Part shown: in pieces, positions 49,321 through 58,051 of the stretch
Layout: each line of letters starts with the position of its first letter
Numbering within the stretch: the first letter of the stretch is position 1
Source of the DNA: Petropleomorpha daqingensis
Lineage (GTDB): Bacteria > Actinomycetota > Actinomycetes > Mycobacteriales > Geodermatophilaceae
Reading direction: 5' to 3'
NCBI RefSeq assembly: GCF_013408985.1
Contig: NZ_JACBZT010000001.1
Coordinates: 4,109,197 to 4,173,196, forward strand
DNA: 64,000 nt
Made by a program: the position numbers and the translations under genes
Notes under the pieces: generated by a model
Databases searched by the model: none
Told to the model about the DNA's origin: nothing
Seen by the model: only the letters and a program-made list of their open reading frames with translations

Positions 49321-50946
49321 TCAGGGCGTGTCCGCCTCCGAGAGGTCCTCCTGGGCGGCGGCCTGCGTCGCGGTCTCGTCCTGGGCTGCGGGCGTCTCGA
49401 CGGCGGGCGTCTCCGCGGCGGGGACCTCCGCGCGCTCGGCCGCGGCCGCGGCCCGGCGCTCCTCCGCCTCCCGGGCCCGCTGGGCCGCCGCCTCGGCGAA
49501 GTCGTTGGCCAGCCAGTCGTGGTTCTCGCAGAGCAGCGCCCACAGCCGGTCGACGTGCTCGCGGGTGGTCGCCGGTGTGCCGATCGCCACGCGCAGCACC
49601 GGCTGCCCGCCGACGGTGGTGTGGGTCAGGAACACCTCGCCGCCGTCGTTGAGCCGCTCCAGCAGCGTCATCGTGGCCACGTCGGCGTCGACGTCGCCGG
49701 CCCAGCGCGGCTTGAGGCAGACCAGCGAGAACGGGTGCTTCGTGACGACGTCGAACCGGTCGTCGGCGTCGACCAGGGCGGCGAACTCCTGCGCGAGCGC
49801 GACGTCCCCGCGGATGTGCTCGCGCAGCCCCTCGGCGCCGTACCAGCGCAGCACGAACCAGAGCTTCAGCGCGCGGAAGCGCCGGCCCAGCTCGATCTGC
49901 CAGTCGCGGTAGTCGACGACCGCGCCCGCCTCGGTGGCGGCGTTGCGCAGGTACTCCGGCAGGATCGACAGCGCACCGGTGAGCGCGGCCCGGTCGGCGA
50001 CCCAGAACAGCGTCGCGTCGAAGCCGGTGAGCAGCCACTTGTGCGCGTCGGTGGTGTAGCTGTCGGCCCACTCGACGCCGGCCTGCAGCTCGCGCAGCTC
50101 CGGGACGACGCCGCTCACGCCCGCGTACGCGGCGTCGACGTGCAGCCAGACGCCGGCCTCGCGGCAGATCGGGCCGAGCTCGGCCAGCGGGTCGATCGCC
50201 GTCGTCGACGTGGTCCCGACGGTGGCGCAGACCAGCACGGGGGTGAACCCGCGGGCGGTGTCCCGCTCCAGGCGGGCCTTGAGCGACGCGGGGCGCATCG
50301 CGAGGTCGCCGTCCACCTCGACGATGCGGACGGCGTCGCTGCCCAGGCCGGCGATGCGCGCCGCCTTCTCCATGGAGGAGTGCGTCTCGGCGGAGACGTA
50401 GACCAGGGCCCGGTCGGGATCGACGCCGTGCCGGACGGTGCCGCCCTTGCTGGCGCGGTGCAGCGCCGCGAGCAGCGCGACCAGGTTGGCGCCGGAGCTG
50501 GAGTCCTGGACCACCCCGCCGCCGGTGCTGGTGGAGAGGAACGTCTCGGGCAGCCTGAGCAGGCCGGCGAACCAGTCCATGACGTGCTGCTCGAGCTCGG
50601 TGGCCGCGGGGCTGGTCACCCACGACATGCCCTGCACGCCGAGCCCGGCGGAGACCAGGTCGCCGAGCACCGACGGCCCGGAGGTGTTGGCGGGGAAGTA
50701 GCCGAAGAAGCCCGGGTGCTGCCAGTGGGTGACGCCGGGCAGGACGACGCGCTCCAGGTCGGCGAGGACGGCGGAGATCGGCTCACCCTGCTCCGGCGGG
50801 GACGCCGGCAGCGCCGCCCGGACGTCGCCGGGGGAGACCTGCGACCGGACGGGGAACGACCCGATGCGCGTCCAGTAGTCGGCGATCCAGTCCACGACCT
50901 CGTGGCCGTGCTGCCGGAACTGCTCGGGCGTCATGTGAGCGGTCAC
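49321..50946 (-). CDS. Aromatic-L-amino-acid decarboxylase family PLP enzyme
   Basis: Group II PLP-dependent decarboxylase of 541 residues. MTPEQFRQHGHEVVDWIADYW, the GVTHWQHPGFFGYFPAN substrate loop, TGGGVVQDSSSGANLVALLAA, WLHVDAAYAG and the PLP lysine in TTDAHKWLLTGFDATLFW match tryptophan/DOPA/tyrosine decarboxylases. An Ala/Glu-rich coiled or disordered tail of about 70 residues is added at the C-terminus. GTG 50946 follows a TAGGTT -10 box by 6 bases; that box lies just beyond the 3' end of the tRNA gene. Substrate could be an aromatic amino acid; not certain. Confidence 0.88.
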   Translation of the reverse strand: MTAHMTPEQFRQHGHEVVDWIADYWTRIGSFPVRSQVSPGDVRAALPASPPEQGEPISAVLADLERVVLPGVTHWQHPGFFGYFPANTSGPSVLGDLVSAGLGVQGMSWVTSPAATELEQHVMDWFAGLLRLPETFLSTSTGGGVVQDSSSGANLVALLAALHRASKGGTVRHGVDPDRALVYVSAETHSSMEKAARIAGLGSDAVRIVEVDGDLAMRPASLKARLERDTARGFTPVLVCATVGTTSTTAIDPLAELGPICREAGVWLHVDAAYAGVSGVVPELRELQAGVEWADSYTTDAHKWLLTGFDATLFWVADRAALTGALSILPEYLRNAATEAGAVVDYRDWQIELGRRFRALKLWFVLRWYGAEGLREHIRGDVALAQEFAALVDADDRFDVVTKHPFSLVCLKPRWAGDVDADVATMTLLERLNDGGEVFLTHTTVGGQPVLRVAIGTPATTREHVDRLWALLCENHDWLANDFAEAAAQRAREAEERRAAAAAERAEVPAAETPAVETPAAQDETATQAAAQEDLSEADTP

Positions 50947-50952
50947 GCCCTG

Positions 50953-50958
50953 AACCTA
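50953..50958 (-). promoter_or_regulatory. -10 box of decarboxylase gene (leaderless)
   Basis: Read on the minus strand, TAGGTT, 6 bases before the GTG at 50946 and 5 bases past the tRNA 3' end. The -35 would lie inside the tRNA gene. Confidence 0.45.
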
Positions 50959-50963
50959 TGCGG

Positions 50964-51037
50964 TGCCCCCGGTGCGACTCGAACGCACACTGCGCGGGTT
51001 TTGAATCCGCTCCCTCTGCCGATTGGGGTACGGGGGC
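50964..51037 (-). tRNA. tRNA-Leu (anticodon CAA), short form
   Basis: On the minus strand a 74-base cloverleaf: acceptor GCCCCCG/CGGGGGC, discriminator A, perfect T-arm GTGCG-TTCGAGT-CGCAC and D-loop with GG. The anticodon loop TTCAAAA gives CAA, reading UUG. CCA is not encoded. The variable loop is only about 5 bases although leucine tRNAs normally have a long arm. The anticodon stem (GCGGA/CCCGC) ends in an A-C mismatch next to the loop. The D-stem has three good pairs. Isotype is less certain than tRNA status. Confidence 0.75.
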
Positions 51038-51121
51038 GCGCCGGGCGTCCCGGCTCCAGCAGGGTAGCGGGCGGTCTCAGAGGTATGGCGCACAGCACCG
51101 ACGCGGTCACGCGGGTCTCGA

Positions 51122-51127
51122 TAGGCT
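51122..51127 (+). promoter_or_regulatory. -10 box of pdtaR (leaderless)
   Basis: TAGGCT, 7 bases before the GTG at 51135. Confidence 0.55.
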
Positions 51128-51134
51128 GCGCAGC

Positions 51135-51734
51135 GTGAGCAGCCAGACGACACGGGTCCTCATCGCCGAGGACGAGGCGCTGATCCGCCTCGACCTCAAG
51201 GAGATGCTCGAGGAGGAGGGCTACACCGTCGTCGCCGAGGTCGGGGACGGGCAGCAGGCCGTGGACCAGGCGGAGGAGCTCCGTCCCGACCTGGTCATCC
51301 TCGACATCCAGATGCCGGTGCTCGACGGGCTGGCGGCGGCCGAGCAGATCGCGAAGGCGCGCACCGCCCCGGTCATCGTGCTCACCGCGTTCAGCCAGCG
51401 CGAACTGGTCGAGCGGGCCCGCGACGCCGGCGCGATGGCCTACCTGGTCAAGCCGTTCAACAAGAACGACCTGGTGCCGGCGATCGAGGTCGCCCGCGCC
51501 CGCTTCGCCGAGATGACGGCGCTCGACGGCGAGGTGCGCACCCTCGAGGAGCGGCTGGAGGCCCGCAAGATCGTCGAGAAGGCCAAGGGCCGGCTCATGG
51601 CCGAGCGGGGCATCACCGAGGCCGACGCGTTCCGGTGGATCCAGCGGACGGCGATGAACGAGCGCACCTCCATGAAAGCGCTGGCCGAGCGGCTGCTGGC
51701 CGAGGATCCCGCGGCGGAGAGCTCCACCGCCTGA
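51135..51734 (+). CDS. pdtaR: Two-component response regulator with ANTAR RNA-binding domain
   Basis: Response regulator of 199 residues. The receiver domain (1-125) has acidic residues EDE, phospho-acceptor Asp57 (LVILDIQMPVLDG) and Lys near 107 (YLVKPF). The C-terminal ANTAR domain (ARKIVEKAKGRLMAERGITEADAFRWIQRTAMNERTSMKALAERLL) binds paired hairpins in mRNA to prevent termination. Matches mycobacterial PdtaR, whose kinase PdtaS is encoded elsewhere. Gene context (tRNA upstream, polA-rpsA downstream) is conserved in actinobacteria. Confidence 0.95.
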   Translation: MSSQTTRVLIAEDEALIRLDLKEMLEEEGYTVVAEVGDGQQAVDQAEELRPDLVILDIQMPVLDGLAAAEQIAKARTAPVIVLTAFSQRELVERARDAGAMAYLVKPFNKNDLVPAIEVARARFAEMTALDGEVRTLEERLEARKIVEKAKGRLMAERGITEADAFRWIQRTAMNERTSMKALAERLLAEDPAAESSTA

Positions 51735-51797
51735 CGGTTCCGGTACCAGGACGGCGCTCGTGACGGCGCGTGATCATGCGTGTCTGTGCCGAACCTG

Positions 51798-51945: not shown

Positions 51946-53286
51946 ATGCGCACTGGCACCATCGCCCGCAGCATCGCAGTCGCCGGGGCCGCTCTGCTCG
52001 CTGTCTCCGCCTGTGGCGGCAGCAGCGATGACAACAGCAGCAGCGGTTCGAGCGGCAGCAGCGGCGAGAAGCAGACGAACGTCTACGGCACCGACGGCAA
52101 CATGGGCAACGCGCTCGGTGAGGACTTCACCAAGGAGGGCTCGCTCGCCGGCATGAGCGGCACGACCCCTCTGACGAACCTCAACGACGACTTCAAGAAG
52201 CGCCTGCTCACCATCGACCCGGCGCTCAAGGACTACAACTACGCCGGTGAGTCGTACGACGCCGTGATGATCACGGCCTTGGCGGCGCAGATGGCCGGCA
52301 CGAACGACGCGAACACCTTCAAGGCGTTCGTGAACGGCGTGACGGTCGGCGGCGACAAGTGCTCCGACTTCAAGTCCTGCCTCGACATCATCAACGGTGG
52401 CGGCAACCCCGACCTCGACGGCATCACCGGTCCGCTGAGCTTCACCGACCCCGGTGAGCCGGCGCAGGCCTCCTTCGGCCTGCTGCACTTCGGTGCCGAC
52501 AACAAGATCGACGACGCGAAGACCAAGTTCGTGCTCGCCGGCGACGAGGCCAACGCCACCACCAACGAGGGCCCGAACGGCGGCAAGGCGGCTACCCCCA
52601 ACGCCACCGGCAACCCGCTGATCATCGGCACCCTGCTGCCGCAGACCGGCAACCTGGCCTTCCTCGGCCCGCCGGAGATCGCCGGCGTCAAGCTCGCCAT
52701 CCAGGACATCAACGCCGCTGGTGGCGTTCTGGGCCAGCCGGTCCAGCTGGTCGAGGGCGACTCGGGCGACACCTCCACGGACACGGCCACGCAGACGGTC
52801 GACCGGCTGCTGCAGGCCAACGTCAACGCGATCATCGGTGCCGCGTCCTCCGGCGTGAGCCAGACGGTCATCGACCGGATCACCGGCGCCGGCGTCCTGG
52901 AGTTCTCCCCGGCGAACACGTCGGACATCTTCACGACGTACAACGACAACGGGCTGTACTTCCGTACCGCCCCGCCGGACCTGCTGCAGGCCCAGGCGCT
53001 GTCGGACCTGATCTCGGGTGACGGCAACACGTCGGTCGGGATCCTGGCGCTCAACGACCCGTACGGCACGGGTCTGGCCGACAACACCGAGAAGGACCTC
53101 ATCGCGGCCGGCCTGAGCCAGGGCGACATCAAGAAGATCATCTACGACCCGCAGGCGGCGAACTACGACTCCGAGGTCCAGCAGATGGTCGACTTCGCGC
53201 CCGACGCCATCGTGGTGATCGGCTTCGAGGAGTCCTCGAAGATCATCCAGGGTCTCAACGCCCAGGGCATCGGCCCGCAGCGCTGA
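51946..53286 (+). CDS. Branched-chain amino acid ABC substrate-binding lipoprotein, circularly permuted
   Basis: Lipoprotein of 446 residues in the Leu/Ile/Val-binding (LivJ/K) family. Signal peptide with lipobox VSAC (Cys23), then a Ser/Gly linker to about residue 42. Residues 43-205 (NVYGTDGNMG through DKCSDFKSC to LLHFGADNK) correspond to the segment that normally ends these proteins. Residues 223-446 (NPLIIGTLLPQTG, DINAAGGVLGQ, VGILALNDPYGTGL, AIVVIGFEESSK, LNAQGIGPQR) correspond to the normal beginning. The order is therefore swapped, with nothing missing and one open frame. GGGAG precedes the ATG. A clean terminator follows. Probably works with the LivHMGF proteins at 53.9-58.1 kb. Confidence 0.88.
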   Translation: MRTGTIARSIAVAGAALLAVSACGGSSDDNSSSGSSGSSGEKQTNVYGTDGNMGNALGEDFTKEGSLAGMSGTTPLTNLNDDFKKRLLTIDPALKDYNYAGESYDAVMITALAAQMAGTNDANTFKAFVNGVTVGGDKCSDFKSCLDIINGGGNPDLDGITGPLSFTDPGEPAQASFGLLHFGADNKIDDAKTKFVLAGDEANATTNEGPNGGKAATPNATGNPLIIGTLLPQTGNLAFLGPPEIAGVKLAIQDINAAGGVLGQPVQLVEGDSGDTSTDTATQTVDRLLQANVNAIIGAASSGVSQTVIDRITGAGVLEFSPANTSDIFTTYNDNGLYFRTAPPDLLQAQALSDLISGDGNTSVGILALNDPYGTGLADNTEKDLIAAGLSQGDIKKIIYDPQAANYDSEVQQMVDFAPDAIVVIGFEESSKIIQGLNAQGIGPQR

Positions 53287-53891: not shown

Positions 53892-54749
53892 CTACTGTGC
53901 CTTGGCGAGCGTCCCCAGGTAGAGCTCGATGACCTTCGGGTCGGTCATCAGCGACTGGCCGGTGTCGGTGTAGGCGTTGCGGCCCTGGTCGAGGACGTAG
54001 CCGCGGTCGCAGATCTGCAGGCACCGGCGGGCGTTCTGCTCGACCATGATGATCGAGACGCCGGTGGCGTTGATCCGCCGGCAGCGGATGAACACCTCGT
54101 CCTGGTAGGCCGGCGACAGGCCCGCCGAGGGCTCGTCGAGCAGCAGCACCGACGGGTCCATCATCAGCGCCCGGCCCATCGCGACCATCTGCCGCTCGCC
54201 GCCGGACAGCGACCCGGCCTTGCCCTTGCGCCGCTCGCCGAGCAGCGGGAACAGGTCGATGACGTAGTCGAAGCGCTCCTTGAACGTCTTCGGCCGCAGG
54301 TACACGCCCATCTGCATGTTCTCCTCGATGGTGAGCGAGGGGAACACGTTGTTGTTCTGCGGCACGTAGCCGACGCCGAGGGACACCAGCCGGTGGGCCG
54401 GCGCGGAGGTGATGTCCTCCCCGCGCAGGGTCACCGCGCCCGAGCGCACCGGGATCAGCCCGAAGAGGGTCTTCAGCAGCGTCGACTTCCCGGCCCCGTT
54501 GGGACCGATGATGCCGACCAGTTCGCCGTCCTGGAGGTAGAAGTCGCAACCGCGCAGGATGTTGACCCCGGGGACGTAGCCGGCCACCAGGTCGTCGGCG
54601 CGCACCAGCGCGCCCTCGGCCAGCCGCTGGTGCTCCTCGCGGGTGGCGGCCTTCTCCGCCGGCGACAGCGTGTCGGTGGCGGTCGCCGCCTCGTCGGCGC
54701 GGGTGATGTCCTCGCCGGACTCGTCGACCTCGAACAACGGCTCGCTCAT
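53892..54749 (-). CDS. livF: Branched-chain amino acid ABC transporter ATPase LivF
   Basis: ATPase subunit, 285 residues. An acidic N-terminal extension of about 50 residues (DESGEDITRADEAATATD) precedes the ABC domain: GIIGPNGAGKSTLLKTLFGLI, Q-loop VPQNNNVFPSLTIEENM, signature SLSGGERQMVAMGRALM, Walker B LLLDEPSAGLSP, switch His replaced by Gln in IIMVEQNARR (usual for LivF). Overlaps livG by 4 bases. Confidence 0.92.
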   Translation of the reverse strand: MSEPLFEVDESGEDITRADEAATATDTLSPAEKAATREEHQRLAEGALVRADDLVAGYVPGVNILRGCDFYLQDGELVGIIGPNGAGKSTLLKTLFGLIPVRSGAVTLRGEDITSAPAHRLVSLGVGYVPQNNNVFPSLTIEENMQMGVYLRPKTFKERFDYVIDLFPLLGERRKGKAGSLSGGERQMVAMGRALMMDPSVLLLDEPSAGLSPAYQDEVFIRCRRINATGVSIIMVEQNARRCLQICDRGYVLDQGRNAYTDTGQSLMTDPKVIELYLGTLAKAQ

Positions 54750-55756
54750 CGGTCGGTCCCTTCCTTCGCCTCGGAGCTGAAGACCTCGCCGTCCACGTTC
54801 TCCTCGCGGGCGATCTCGCGCTCGGCCTGGGCGAGCACGCGGTCCTCCTCCTCGGCGGTCAGCGGTGCGTCGTGGTGGGCCCCGAGGTAGGCGTCGACGA
54901 CGGCCTGGTTCTGGCTGATCGACTCCGGCGGGCCCTCGGCGATCACCCGGCCGGCGGCCATGACGACGACCCAGTCGCTGATGTCCCGGACGACGTCCAT
55001 GTCGTGCTCGACGAAGATCACCGTCATGCCCTGCTCGCGCAGGTCCTTGACGTGGCCGAGCAGGCTCTGGGTGAGCGCCGGGTTCACGCCGGCCATCGGC
55101 TCGTCGAGCATGACGACCTTGGGGTCGCTCATCAGCGCGCGGGCCATCTCGAGCAGCTTGCGCTGGCCGCCGGACAGCGTGCCGGCGAAGTCGTCCTTCT
55201 TGGCGTCGAGCTTGAACCGCTGGAGCAGGTCCATGGCCTTCTCGGTGTTGGCCTTCTCCTGCGCCCTCCACGTGCCGGGGATCAGGGCGCGCAGGAAGCT
55301 CTCGCCGCGCTGGCCCTGCGCCCCGAGCAGCATGTTCTGCAGCACGGTGAGGCGGGACAGCGCCTTGGTCAGCTGGAAGGTGCGGACGACGCCGAGCCGG
55401 GCGACCTGGTGTGGCGCGGTGTGCCCCATGTCGCGACCGTCGAACGTCCAGGAGCCGGTGTTGGGCTGGTCGAACCCGGTGAGCAGGTTGAACAGCGTCG
55501 TCTTGCCGGCACCGTTGGGCCCGATCAGGCCGGTGATCCCGCCGCGCTGGATCTCCAGGTGGTCGACCGCGACCGCGGTCAGACCACCGAAGGTGCGGGT
55601 GATGCCGTCGACGACGACGGCCGCGTCGGGCTTGGCGACGCCGACCTCCCACGGCACGTCGCGCAGCGCGGCCTGGGCGAGCCGACGGGGTGCGCCCGCG
55701 CCGGACGCTGACGCACCTGAGGACGTGGCGCCGGCAGGGGTGGGCTCAGCGGGCAT
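54746..55756 (-). CDS. livG: Branched-chain amino acid ABC transporter ATPase LivG
   Basis: ATPase subunit, 336 residues, longer than the usual 255 because of an Ala/Gly/Ser-rich N-terminal extension (about 45) and an acidic C-terminal tail (about 40). ABC motifs: FGGLTAVAVDHLEI, GLIGPNGAGKTTLFNLLTGF, VVRTFQLTKALSRLTVLQNMLLGAQ (typical of LivG), TLSGGQRKLLEMARALM, VVMLDEPMAGVNP, and FVEHDMDVV with switch His. Its start overlaps livM by 11 bases. Confidence 0.93.
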   Translation of the reverse strand: MPAEPTPAGATSSGASASGAGAPRRLAQAALRDVPWEVGVAKPDAAVVVDGITRTFGGLTAVAVDHLEIQRGGITGLIGPNGAGKTTLFNLLTGFDQPNTGSWTFDGRDMGHTAPHQVARLGVVRTFQLTKALSRLTVLQNMLLGAQGQRGESFLRALIPGTWRAQEKANTEKAMDLLQRFKLDAKKDDFAGTLSGGQRKLLEMARALMSDPKVVMLDEPMAGVNPALTQSLLGHVKDLREQGMTVIFVEHDMDVVRDISDWVVVMAAGRVIAEGPPESISQNQAVVDAYLGAHHDAPLTAEEEDRVLAQAEREIAREENVDGEVFSSEAKEGTDR

Positions 55757-56744
55757 CGATCATCACCTCTCGTCGGTCCCCGAAGATCCCCTGTGGTCGG
55801 AAGATCAGCAACAACATCAGCCCGACGCCGACGAGCACGAAGCGGATCTGCGCGACGTCGGTCGAGGAGAGCAACCCGGCCGGGATGATGCCCTTGTCGA
55901 TGAGCAGCCGGAGCCCCGTGTCGGCGAACTGCAGGATGAACAGCAGCAGCATGCTCCCCACGACGGGTCCGAGCACGCGGGCCGCGCCGCCGAGGATGAG
56001 CGCCGCGTAGGCGAGGAACGTGTTGGCGTTCTGGTACTGGTCGGGGATCGCCGAGCCGGTGCCGATGGCGTAGACCATGCCGCCGAAGGCACCGATCACA
56101 CCGCCGAGCACGAGGGACTGCATCTTGTACGCGTAGACGTTCTTGCCGAGCGCCCGGACGGCGTCCTCGTCCTCGCGGATCGACTTGACCACCCGGCCCC
56201 ACGGGCTGCGGACCAGCAGCCAGGTGAGCAGGCTGAAGACGACGACGAGCAGCCAGCCGATGAGGGCCACCCAGAGCTCGCCGCCGCTCCAGCGGGTGCC
56301 GAGGACCGGGTAGCGCGTGGAGGTGTCCCACGGCGCCAGCGCGATGAAGTCGTGGTTGAACGAGGCCAGGCCGCGGGTGCCGCCGGTGACCGAGGTGGCC
56401 GACACCGAGCGGAACAGGAGCCGCAACCCCTCGGCGGCGGCGATGGTGACGATGGCCAGGTAGTCCGCGCGCAGCCGCAGGGTCGGCAGACCCAGCAGCA
56501 GCGCGAGCACGACCGCCGCGCCGATCGCGACGAGCACGCCGACCCAGAAGTTCAGGCCCCACTGGGTCACCGAGACCGCGATGCCGAACCCGCCCAGCAT
56601 CGCGAACGCGATCTGACCGAAGTTGAGCAGGCCGGTGTAGCCGAAGTGCATGTTCAGGCCGATGGCCAGCAGCGCGAAGAAGATGGCCTGGAAGCCCAGG
56701 GCCGACTTGCCCGCGACTGCGACCGCGTTGAGGAGATCGCTCAC
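55746..56744 (-). CDS. livM: Branched-chain amino acid ABC transporter permease LivM
   Basis: Permease of 332 residues with about eight to nine helices. LNMHFGYTGLLNFGQIAFAMLGGF near the N-terminus, LGLPTLRLRADYLAIVTIAAAEGLRLLFR, TGGTRGLA, the cytoplasmic coupling loop GRVVKSIREDEDAVRALGKNVYAYK and a final LIFRPQGIFGDRRE are LivM hallmarks. The GTG at 56744 lies 5 bases after the livH stop. Confidence 0.93.
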   Translation of the reverse strand: MSDLLNAVAVAGKSALGFQAIFFALLAIGLNMHFGYTGLLNFGQIAFAMLGGFGIAVSVTQWGLNFWVGVLVAIGAAVVLALLLGLPTLRLRADYLAIVTIAAAEGLRLLFRSVSATSVTGGTRGLASFNHDFIALAPWDTSTRYPVLGTRWSGGELWVALIGWLLVVVFSLLTWLLVRSPWGRVVKSIREDEDAVRALGKNVYAYKMQSLVLGGVIGAFGGMVYAIGTGSAIPDQYQNANTFLAYAALILGGAARVLGPVVGSMLLLFILQFADTGLRLLIDKGIIPAGLLSSTDVAQIRFVLVGVGLMLLLIFRPQGIFGDRREVMIDAR

Positions 56745-56749
56745 TGGCT

Positions 56750-58051
56750 TCAGCCGATCCGTGCGCGGGAGCCCAGGATCCCCTGGGGCCGGATGACGAG
56801 GATGACGATGAGCAGCAGCAGGCCCCCGACGTACTTCATGTCGTCGGGGATCACCAGCGTGGACATCTGGACGAAGACGCCGACGATGATGCTGCCGACG
56901 AGGGCGCCGTAGGCCGTGCCCAGACCGCCGAGCGTGACGCCGGCGAACATGAGCAGCAGCAGCCGGAAGCCCATGTCCCACTGCACCTGGTCGGACAGGC
57001 CGAGCAGGACGCCGCCGAGCGTGGCCAGCGCGCCGCCCATCATCCAGACGACCAGGATCACCCGGTTGACGTCGATGCCCGAGGACGAGGCGAGGTCGCG
57101 GTTGTCGGCGACGGCGCGCATCGCCTTGCCGATCTTGGTGCGCTGCAGCATGACGGCGACCAGCACCAGGACGACGACCGAGATGATGATCGAGAACAGC
57201 GCCCGGTTGGTCAGGGTGAAGACGCCGTAGTCGACCGCCCGCTGGTTCTGGAAGTCGGCGTAGGGGTTGGAGAACCCGCCGTAGACGATCTGGATCAGGT
57301 ACCGCAGCGCGAGCGACAGACCGATCGAGACCACCAGGGCGGCCACCAGGCCCGTGCCGCGCCTGCGCAGCGGCCGCCACAGGGCGAGTTCGTTGAGGGC
57401 GCCGACGGCGGCGCCGGCCACCATCGCGATCAGCGTCGCCGGGATCAGCGGGACGCCGCCGCGCACGTTGATGTACCAGGCGATGATCGCGCCGATCGTG
57501 ACCAGCTCGCCGTGGGCGAAGTTGGTCAGGCCGGTCGTCCCGAAGATCAGCGACAGGCCGACGGCGCACATCGCGATCAGCAGGCCGAACCGCAGGCCGT
57601 CGACCAGCAGCTGGACGGCGCGGACGTTGCCGCCGCCGGTGCGGCTGCCGTCGCTGAGCCCGAACAGCACCGGCTGCTGGCGGTTGGGCCCGACGGTGAC
57701 CGTGCGGGTGTCCTCACCGTTGAGCTTGACGGTGTCGGGCAGGTCCTTCTCGTTGATCGAGACGACGTACTGGCCGGGACCGGGCACGTCCACGGCGAAC
57801 TTGCCGTCCGAGTCCGTCTTCGCCGAGCCGACGTCGTCCCCGTTCGGCGTGGTGACCGTGATCTCCACGTCCTCGATGGGACCGCTGCGGCTGGTCTGGA
57901 GCGTGCCGATGACCTGCTCGCCCTCGGCCGAGGCGATGCCCGGCGTCAGGGTGGCCAAGCCGCCGGCGAAGATCGTCACCAGAAGCAGCCGGAGCAGGAT
58001 CCTGCGTACGCCGGAGGATCGACTCCGGGTACCGCCTCCCGCGTGGGTCAC
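56750..58051 (-). CDS. livH: Branched-chain amino acid permease LivH with secreted N-terminal domain
   Basis: Permease of 433 residues; the normal LivH part (about 290 residues) starts near 145 (VQLLVDGLRFGLLIAMCAVGLSLIFGTTGLTNFAHGELVTIGA) and ends LVIRPQGILGSRARIG. Before it lies a signal-peptide-like segment (ILLRLLLVTIFAGGLATLTPGIASA, residues 18-42). An extracytoplasmic beta-sandwich follows (about 46-125), resembling carboxypeptidase regulatory/CNA-B-like domains, with a GKFAVDVPGPGQYVVSI core. GTG 58051 has GGGAGG at good spacing. First gene of livHMGF; no substrate-binding gene is on this strand. Confidence 0.92.
   Translation of the reverse strand: MTHAGGGTRSRSSGVRRILLRLLLVTIFAGGLATLTPGIASAEGEQVIGTLQTSRSGPIEDVEITVTTPNGDDVGSAKTDSDGKFAVDVPGPGQYVVSINEKDLPDTVKLNGEDTRTVTVGPNRQQPVLFGLSDGSRTGGGNVRAVQLLVDGLRFGLLIAMCAVGLSLIFGTTGLTNFAHGELVTIGAIIAWYINVRGGVPLIPATLIAMVAGAAVGALNELALWRPLRRRGTGLVAALVVSIGLSLALRYLIQIVYGGFSNPYADFQNQRAVDYGVFTLTNRALFSIIISVVVLVLVAVMLQRTKIGKAMRAVADNRDLASSSGIDVNRVILVVWMMGGALATLGGVLLGLSDQVQWDMGFRLLLLMFAGVTLGGLGTAYGALVGSIIVGVFVQMSTLVIPDDMKYVGGLLLLIVILVIRPQGILGSRARIG

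Follow-up and report, generated by a model that had tools for sequence, protein, structure and literature searches.

A circularly permuted substrate-binding lipoprotein beside LivHMGF-type importer genes in Petropleomorpha daqingensis, and phylogenetic evidence for repeated permutation of its gene family

The window, a 64,000-nucleotide stretch of Petropleomorpha daqingensis DNA analysed as a whole, contains a gene for a substrate-binding protein (SBP) that is a permuted derivative of the Peripla_BP_6 family and no standard member of it. The rotated order is conserved within Geodermatophilaceae, and its chromosomal neighbourhood (pdtaR, SBP, convergent livFGMH) is shared with normal-order orthologues elsewhere in the Actinomycetota. 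The gene tree indicates five or more independent permutations of this family within the phylum. In the list below, old refers to the normal order, and L109 is a normal-order relative from Rhodococcus.

51946..53286, + strand: permuted substrate-binding lipoprotein gene, 446 amino acids and stop (open reading frame, family scan, BLASTP)
51946..52014, + strand: signal peptide and lipobox, residues 1-23 (VSAC, Cys23), from sequence
52015..52071, + strand: Ser/Gly/Asp-rich tether linker, residues 24-42, from sequence and from pLDDT below 50 for residues 1-39
52072..52545, + strand: old C-terminal part, residues 43-200 (NVYGTDGN to TKFVLAGD), from BLASTP and element match to L109
52093..52095, + strand: Asp50, aligned with Asp297 of L109, which is invariant in 25 normal-order rows
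52546..52611, + strand: joint, residues 201-222, leading from old C-terminus to old N-terminus, from alignment and pLDDT
52612..53283, + strand: old N-terminal part, residues 223-446, ending in GIGPQR; Peripla_BP_6 positions 4-217, 59% identical to L109
53301..53340, + strand: GC-rich hairpin of 18 bp between convergent genes (z=-5.9), without T run

Rotated order and predicted fold

An earlier note on this DNA proposed a circularly permuted lipoprotein whose lipobox and linker lead straight into the normally C-terminal segment and which stops at GIGPQR, where that segment should begin. The reading frame, strand and coordinates are as it gave them, and BLASTP against L109 agrees with the proposed order. 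Residues 198-444 of the window protein (P0001) align with L109 residues 42-287 at 59% identity, and residues 44-188 align with L109 residues 291-434 at 53% identity. These are the two off-diagonal lines that the note had suggested looking for in a dot plot. They meet at the break, and only three L109 residues (288-290) fall between them; the order is therefore rotated, and almost nothing has been lost at the break. A misreading of the order is rejected on these alignments and on the normal profile spans of SBPs from the same genome. The circular permutation is thus supported by sequence, by conservation, by a confidently predicted fold whose elements come in rotated order, and by a gene neighbourhood in common with orthologues of normal order.

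The Pfam profile Peripla_BP_6 matches residues 227-444 only, which correspond to profile positions 4-217 of 343 (115 bits, cut-off 31.7); in L109 the match covers positions 2-315. Other significant Pfam matches are to ANF_receptor and Peripla_BP_5, and the best PDB sequence matches are LivJ-type amino-acid SBPs, over the old N-terminal half only. A profile search of the source genome finds Peripla_BP_6 at seven places. The window gene is there at profile 4-218, five other proteins have normal order (profile from 1-2 to 321-342), and the seventh place (profile 20-235, 28.4 bits, below cut-off) was read by eye as a sugar-type SBP. The window protein departs from the canonical collinear LivJ/LivK order both in its off-diagonal alignments and in its rotated structural elements, and the permutation accounts for the fact that profile models built on sequence order recognise only one half of each such protein. 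That Pfam and PDB sequence searches see only about residues 223-446 might point to two unrelated domains shuffled together, with residues 43-200 not being the old C-terminal part, but this has practically no probability and is rejected, as residues 44-188 share their 53% identity and the same element order with the C-terminal part of a normal-order relative, and all 192 classified proteins (181 distinct) match both halves.

The ATG at 51946 gives an MRTG-like start common to most of the close relatives listed; the longer mechanical open reading frame begins at 51760. The lipobox motif AVSAC is at residues 19-23, and with the signal peptide it marks the product as a predicted lipoprotein. Related proteins of Geodermatophilaceae (group I below) have the lipobox cysteine at the same or the next position. 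The first residues after the linker are T44-N-V-Y-G-T-D-G, the old C-terminal part opening with NVYGTDGNMG. The joint is Gly/Asn/Ala-rich, and the old N-terminal part that follows opens with NPLIIGTLLPQTG. Since the alignment from residue 198 reaches back into the old tether linker of L109, the joint may retain a remnant of that linker, although the suggestion is a weak one. The note's claim that a terminator follows the gene at once holds only in part: the 18-bp hairpin does lie after the stop and is a plausible terminator of the SBP gene, but a T run is absent and the scan for terminators gave no site there.

Structural modelling by AlphaFold2 predicts a LivJ-like two-lobed fold. The model of the window protein, based on 26 permuted sequences, has a mean pLDDT of 89.1 and a pTM of 0.85; the control model of L109, based on 25 normal sequences, has values of 86.7 and 0.82. 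Residues 1-39 are below 50, and the three 10-residue blocks of 201-230, which include the joint, reach 93, 87 and 97. The predicted helices and strands match those of L109 in rotated order. Fifteen elements of the old N-terminal part, beginning with strand 226-231 and ending with helix 430-439, are matched by L109 69-74 to 273-282 at a constant offset of 157, and the old C-terminal part, from strand 45-48 to strand 194-199, corresponds to L109 292-296 to 434-443 at an offset of about 246. In normal order the cut would thus come behind element 15, in the stretch of L109 that separates helix 273-282 from strand 292-296. This fits the note's placing of the new termini in a loop of lobe 2, the lobe being assigned by LivJ numbering.

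With VIA-align, the permuted model superposes on solved LivJ-type chains over 220 residues (best Z 17.3, rmsd 3.2), which is the coverage expected if the aligner keeps sequence order; the normal L109 model does so over 338 residues (best Z 37.0, rmsd 3.3). Neither Foldseek nor VIA-align lists a full-length match for the permuted model, and the normal control gives a full match.

In the 26 permuted rows Ser302, Thr325 and Tyr373 do not vary, nor do their L109 counterparts Ser145, Thr168 and Tyr216 in the 25 normal rows. Together with Asp50, these are residues that we take, from LivJ and Atu2422, to line the ligand pocket, Asp50 presumably binding the amino group of the ligand. Asp50 is missing from the invariant list of the permuted rows; one set of these proteins, group II, has that segment at the other end.

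Conservation and chromosomal setting

A family scan finds a match at E<=1e-30 in 95 of 112 Geodermatophilaceae genomes, with 12 of 12 genera represented. Ninety-two of the 112 have the gene full-length, in the same order and without a stop (full-length meaning one place that covers the query from residue <=16 to >=444), and the orthologues that the note had asked for are therefore at hand. Three genomes (G492, G494, G023) have a fragment only, and 17 show no match at 1e-30, some of these genomes being incomplete. A family sample gives a full-length match in 21 of 25 genomes. Group I permuted proteins occur in Blastococcus, Modestobacter, Geodermatophilus and Klenkia, and three of them are identical to family-genome proteins; it is these named loci that assign the scanned genomes (family code f1) to Geodermatophilaceae. 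An assembly or sequencing error that swapped the halves of a normal gene is vanishingly unlikely and is rejected: a single contig could in principle be wrong, but no support for an error was found, and independent assemblies share the permuted order, in one-contig and draft genomes of the family and in other families as well.

Both halves appear to be under constraint. In nine of nine pairs compared, dN/dS is below 1 in both: the old N part ranges from 0.08 to 0.36 and the old C part from 0.07 to 0.59, whereas the joint and linker range from 0 to 1.4. Low values in both halves are the pattern expected of a functional protein.

Paralogues are also present in the family. Four genomes (G002, G021, G499, G500) have a second permuted paralogue, 61-65% identical to the window protein. 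The second permuted paralogue of Klenkia taihuensis (L079) has no liv genes adjoining it in the locus examined. Three further genomes (G502, G505, G518) have a 42-44% identical relative that matches the old N part only (residues 201-445 at most), and these are presumably normal-order paralogues.

The neighbours of the SBP gene in the window are the following.

50958..51734, + strand: ANTAR response regulator of PdtaR type, upstream; Pfam Response_reg and ANTAR, a conserved neighbour
53892..54749, - strand: livF ATPase, a conserved neighbour that converges on the SBP gene; start set by eye
54746..55756, - strand: livG ATPase, from locus comparison and Pfam
55746..56744, - strand: livM permease, from Pfam; start placed by eye
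56750..58051, - strand: livH permease with an N-terminal secreted beta-sandwich-like domain, from Pfam

Among 80 named loci, a pdtaR-type ANTAR gene upstream together with a convergent livF downstream is found at 10 of 28 permuted and 26 of 52 normal loci. A downstream livF is found at 16 of 28 permuted and 49 of 52 normal loci, although some contigs end too early to tell. Permuted genes of groups IIa, IV and V and one normal gene have the same SBP-livFGMH arrangement (loci L206-L209). Group IIb (L204, L205) has a different one, the SBP gene being divergent from livH, and none of the eight named group III loci adjoins liv genes within the stretch examined.

Two features of the locus deserve mention. 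LivH has at its N-terminus (57700-58051, - strand) a signal-like segment and a beta-sandwich-like domain before the membrane part; this domain scores 29.4 bits against PF13620 CarboxypepD_reg, below the cut-off of 32.3. By tblastn, LivH matches extend into the domain region beside permuted and normal SBPs alike, and its presence does not seem linked to the permutation. A role in docking is possible. In addition, a decarboxylase-like open reading frame (by eye) at 49321-50946 (- strand) lies beside pdtaR in those group I loci that reach that far.

Recurrence of the permutation in Actinomycetota

The window protein is not an isolated case. The tree implies that its gene family was permuted five times or more, and the window protein stands for one of these events. 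The genome searches covered Actinomycetota, and 192 proteins were classified, 72 as permuted and 120 as normal; 181 are distinct, some genes coming from two collections. The class sample has a long collinear match in 11 of 138 genomes matching at 1e-40 (394 searched, top four candidates each) and the phylum sample in 8 of 62 genomes (396 searched). Plasmid records with a match number 89, the best being 48-50% identical in Nonomuraea and Arthrobacter and the others listed distant. The permuted forms make up six clades in the best tree.

Group I: Geodermatophilaceae
Group III: Micromonosporaceae (Micromonospora, Salinispora, Asanoa, Catellatospora)
Group IV: Nocardioidaceae (Marmoricola and G895)
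Group V: Actinomycetes metagenome-assembled genomes (MAGs) and genomes of the family codes f151 and f158
Group IIa: Acidimicrobiia such as Ferrithrix and Acidimicrobium
Group IIb: two genomes of family f30, a family absent among the matches listed in the class sample around G351

The main tree has 68 rows of rotated sequences, 34 permuted and 34 normal, rows having been removed by hand on grounds of length, redundancy and computing time. Shared 4-mers served to find near-identical rows, which were left out in both orders. Partial or broken rows were removed (L064, L106, L018, L066, L197, L083 and other truncated normals), as were 18 further normals (L055, L056, L058-L060, L088, L094, L095b2, L099, L100b3, L105, L107, L111, L115, L121, L134, L167, L175) and several permuted rows. 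Others were dropped with the outgroups (L164, L154, L006, L011, L014, L043, L048, L049, L082, L114, L139, L161, L162, L169, L198, L201, L202), and L110b2 was left out for its long branch.

Well-supported branches of this tree force at least five changes of order (bootstrap range 5-6); the tree is unrooted, and the count is of changes without direction, not of gains. A return to the exact old order is unlikely. Each half taken alone needs five changes (5-6), of which at least three are forced, one half tree carrying a long-branch warning for L136. An earlier quick tree of 96 rows (33 permuted, 63 normal), used as a check, has six changes, five of them forced, and a quick tree with four distant outgroups likewise forced five. 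Rooting with four distant SBPs of the source genome was dropped, as their branches were 8-10 long and the outgroup was split.

One ancient permutation, inherited or transferred horizontally, could in principle give a scattered distribution if the tree is in error or if normal paralogues have exchanged sequence with the permuted gene by gene conversion. The cut is in the same loop in groups I, III, IV and V, groups I and III cannot be told from one clade, and tandem copies, a setting for gene conversion, do exist at the locus. However, gene transfer alone cannot split a gene tree, and the AU test rejects one clade for all permuted forms (p=1.7e-7, log-likelihood 326 worse). Conversion would have had to rewrite both halves repeatedly, since each half separately needs five changes. 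In addition, group II is cut elsewhere, about 22 residues on, and the genes around the SBP are arranged differently in IIa and IIb. A single origin is accordingly improbable.

The AU test also rejects one clade for IV and V (p=1.6e-5) and for I and II (p=5e-48). Rejection of group II as one clade (p=3e-4) and of I, III and IIa as one clade (p=1e-3) is to be read more softly, as the split and the subgroup were picked after viewing the trees. Groups I and III are compatible with one clade (p=0.37), and the cautious count of independent origins is therefore five, six being that of the best tree.

Three other sequences from the survey may be recorded. L110:6963-8423, from an Acidimicrobiaceae MAG, is a very divergent normal-order paralogue (branch 1.95) beside a normal copy. 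L164 (G722) is a highly diverged permutant of group II type, 40% identical. L064:7827-9188, from an Acidimicrobiales MAG, is a permuted gene whose frame seems to shift ahead of the joint, perhaps through a sequencing error.

The cuts fall at two sites. Among 40 permuted proteins placed on L109, 38 fall within a few residues of one site or the other. In groups I, III, IV and V the end is mostly at L109 residue 289, otherwise at 290-292, and in group II it is at 311-313, some 22 residues later; the outliers are L081 at 299 and L103, misaligned at 361. Correspondingly, the window protein and single members of groups III, IV and V lose the Peripla_BP_6 match at profile position 216-217, whereas the only member of group II that was scanned keeps it up to 238. 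On the predicted structure, the two neighbouring cut loops flank the conserved Asp and, by LivJ numbering, presumably belong to lobe 2.

Origin, possible working and known systems

The window protein would serve as SBP to the neighbouring LivHMGF system, an ABC importer of the branched-chain amino-acid type, and would have an ordinary two-lobed 'Venus flytrap' fold made from a circularly permuted polypeptide. The old termini would be joined by a linker of about 22 residues and the new termini would lie in a lobe-2 loop just before the Asp50 strand, such that the lipid tether enters lobe 2 in place of lobe 1. By LivJ topology, the joint would add a fourth lobe-to-lobe connection. An amino-acid-like ligand would be bound by closure of the lobes and then passed to LivHM. 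The permutation most likely arose in place at the pdtaR-SBP-livFGMH locus, by tandem duplication, fusion of the copies and trimming. This reading of the protein as a permuted importer SBP, with its fold, its ligand, the in-place duplication route and at least five independent permutations taken together, is very probably correct.

Tandem normal-order copies, which such a route needs, occur at the locus and suggest an origin of the permutants by duplication. Five of eight Nonomuraea pdtaR-liv loci have two or three copies head to tail, 72-85% identical (L088, L089, L100 with three copies, L093, L101 with two), and a Nocardioidaceae MAG, from the family of group IV, has two that are 61% identical (L095:5241-8022). 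The loci examined contain no fused or half-trimmed duplication intermediate. When the surroundings of the window gene were searched loosely for a decayed second copy, every match was either at chance level or antisense (best E 0.015).

Perhaps the rotated order is real but neutral: loops of lobe 2 may tolerate termini, and tandem duplication may produce permutants steadily. This has a little less than an even chance of being right, and it is compatible with the permuted-importer explanation because it denies only an advantage. Normal and permuted orthologues are found at the same locus with the same transporter genes, the pocket-equivalent Ser, Thr and Tyr are invariant in both orders, and the cuts fall in loops of the predicted structure. 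On the other hand, the six groups use only two neighbouring loops of the 26 between the 27 elements of L109, and all appear to shift the tether to the same lobe, which tolerance in many loops would not predict. This raises the question of whether repeated permutation is adaptive. A tether moved to lobe 2, near the presumed ligand-binding Asp, and a fourth hinge strand might alter opening, closing or docking. The proposal is tentative and rather unlikely as matters stand; if true, there would be a convergent adaptive change of topology that used either of two cut sites, one before and one after the ligand Asp.

Compared with SBPs of LivJ/LivK type (PF13458 Peripla_BP_6; type I, cluster B), the window protein is homologous over both halves and shares the lipobox, the equivalents of Ser302, Thr325, Tyr373 and Asp50, and the livHMGF neighbourhood. 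It differs in being rotated, the new termini lying in a loop assigned to lobe 2 and the old termini being joined by a linker.

The earlier note knew of no permuted member of this family, and in open-licence PMC literature neither a permuted amino-acid-family SBP nor repeated permutation of an SBP was found described. A permuted type I SBP is nevertheless known, TpMglB-2 (Tp0684) of Treponema, a glucose-binding lipoprotein classed as 'Type Ic / Cluster Bc' (PMC4990184). According to the available part of that account, the chain is opened between strands 3 and 4 of the N lobe, and the strand order is 5-4-6-1-2-3; the lobes gain a fourth crossing, and tethering is put forward as something that might have favoured the rearrangement (PMC4990184). 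The moved segment aligned at only 13% identity, an origin from another gene was considered, and this part of the account reports no repeated origin (PMC4990184). As far as that description goes, the two proteins are alike in being circularly permuted type I SBPs with a lipobox, and both would gain a fourth lobe crossing. They differ in that the window protein is of amino-acid type by its Pfam and PDB matches and not of the sugar-binding family, its group appears to be cut in the other lobe and at two sites, the origins are by the tree multiple, and the moved parts are more than 50% identical to a normal-order relative, as against 13%.

Natural permutation in DNA methyltransferases and in saposin/swaposin has been explained by tandem duplication and trimming, and the portion available of a review sets out duplication and fission/fusion models (PMC3320104). 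Those cases, as far as they are set out there, concern other folds, whereas here normal, permuted and tandem copies at the same locus can be compared directly. Natural circular permutations have mostly been compared between distant relatives. The present family offers normal and permuted relatives more than 50% identical, at the same chromosomal locus and with the same partner genes, whose order has by the tree changed at least five times. Thus, the steps of permutation, the loops that tolerate it and the relevance of the tether point become testable, and the repeated swapping of halves in one gene amounts to a natural experiment in the rewiring of protein folds.
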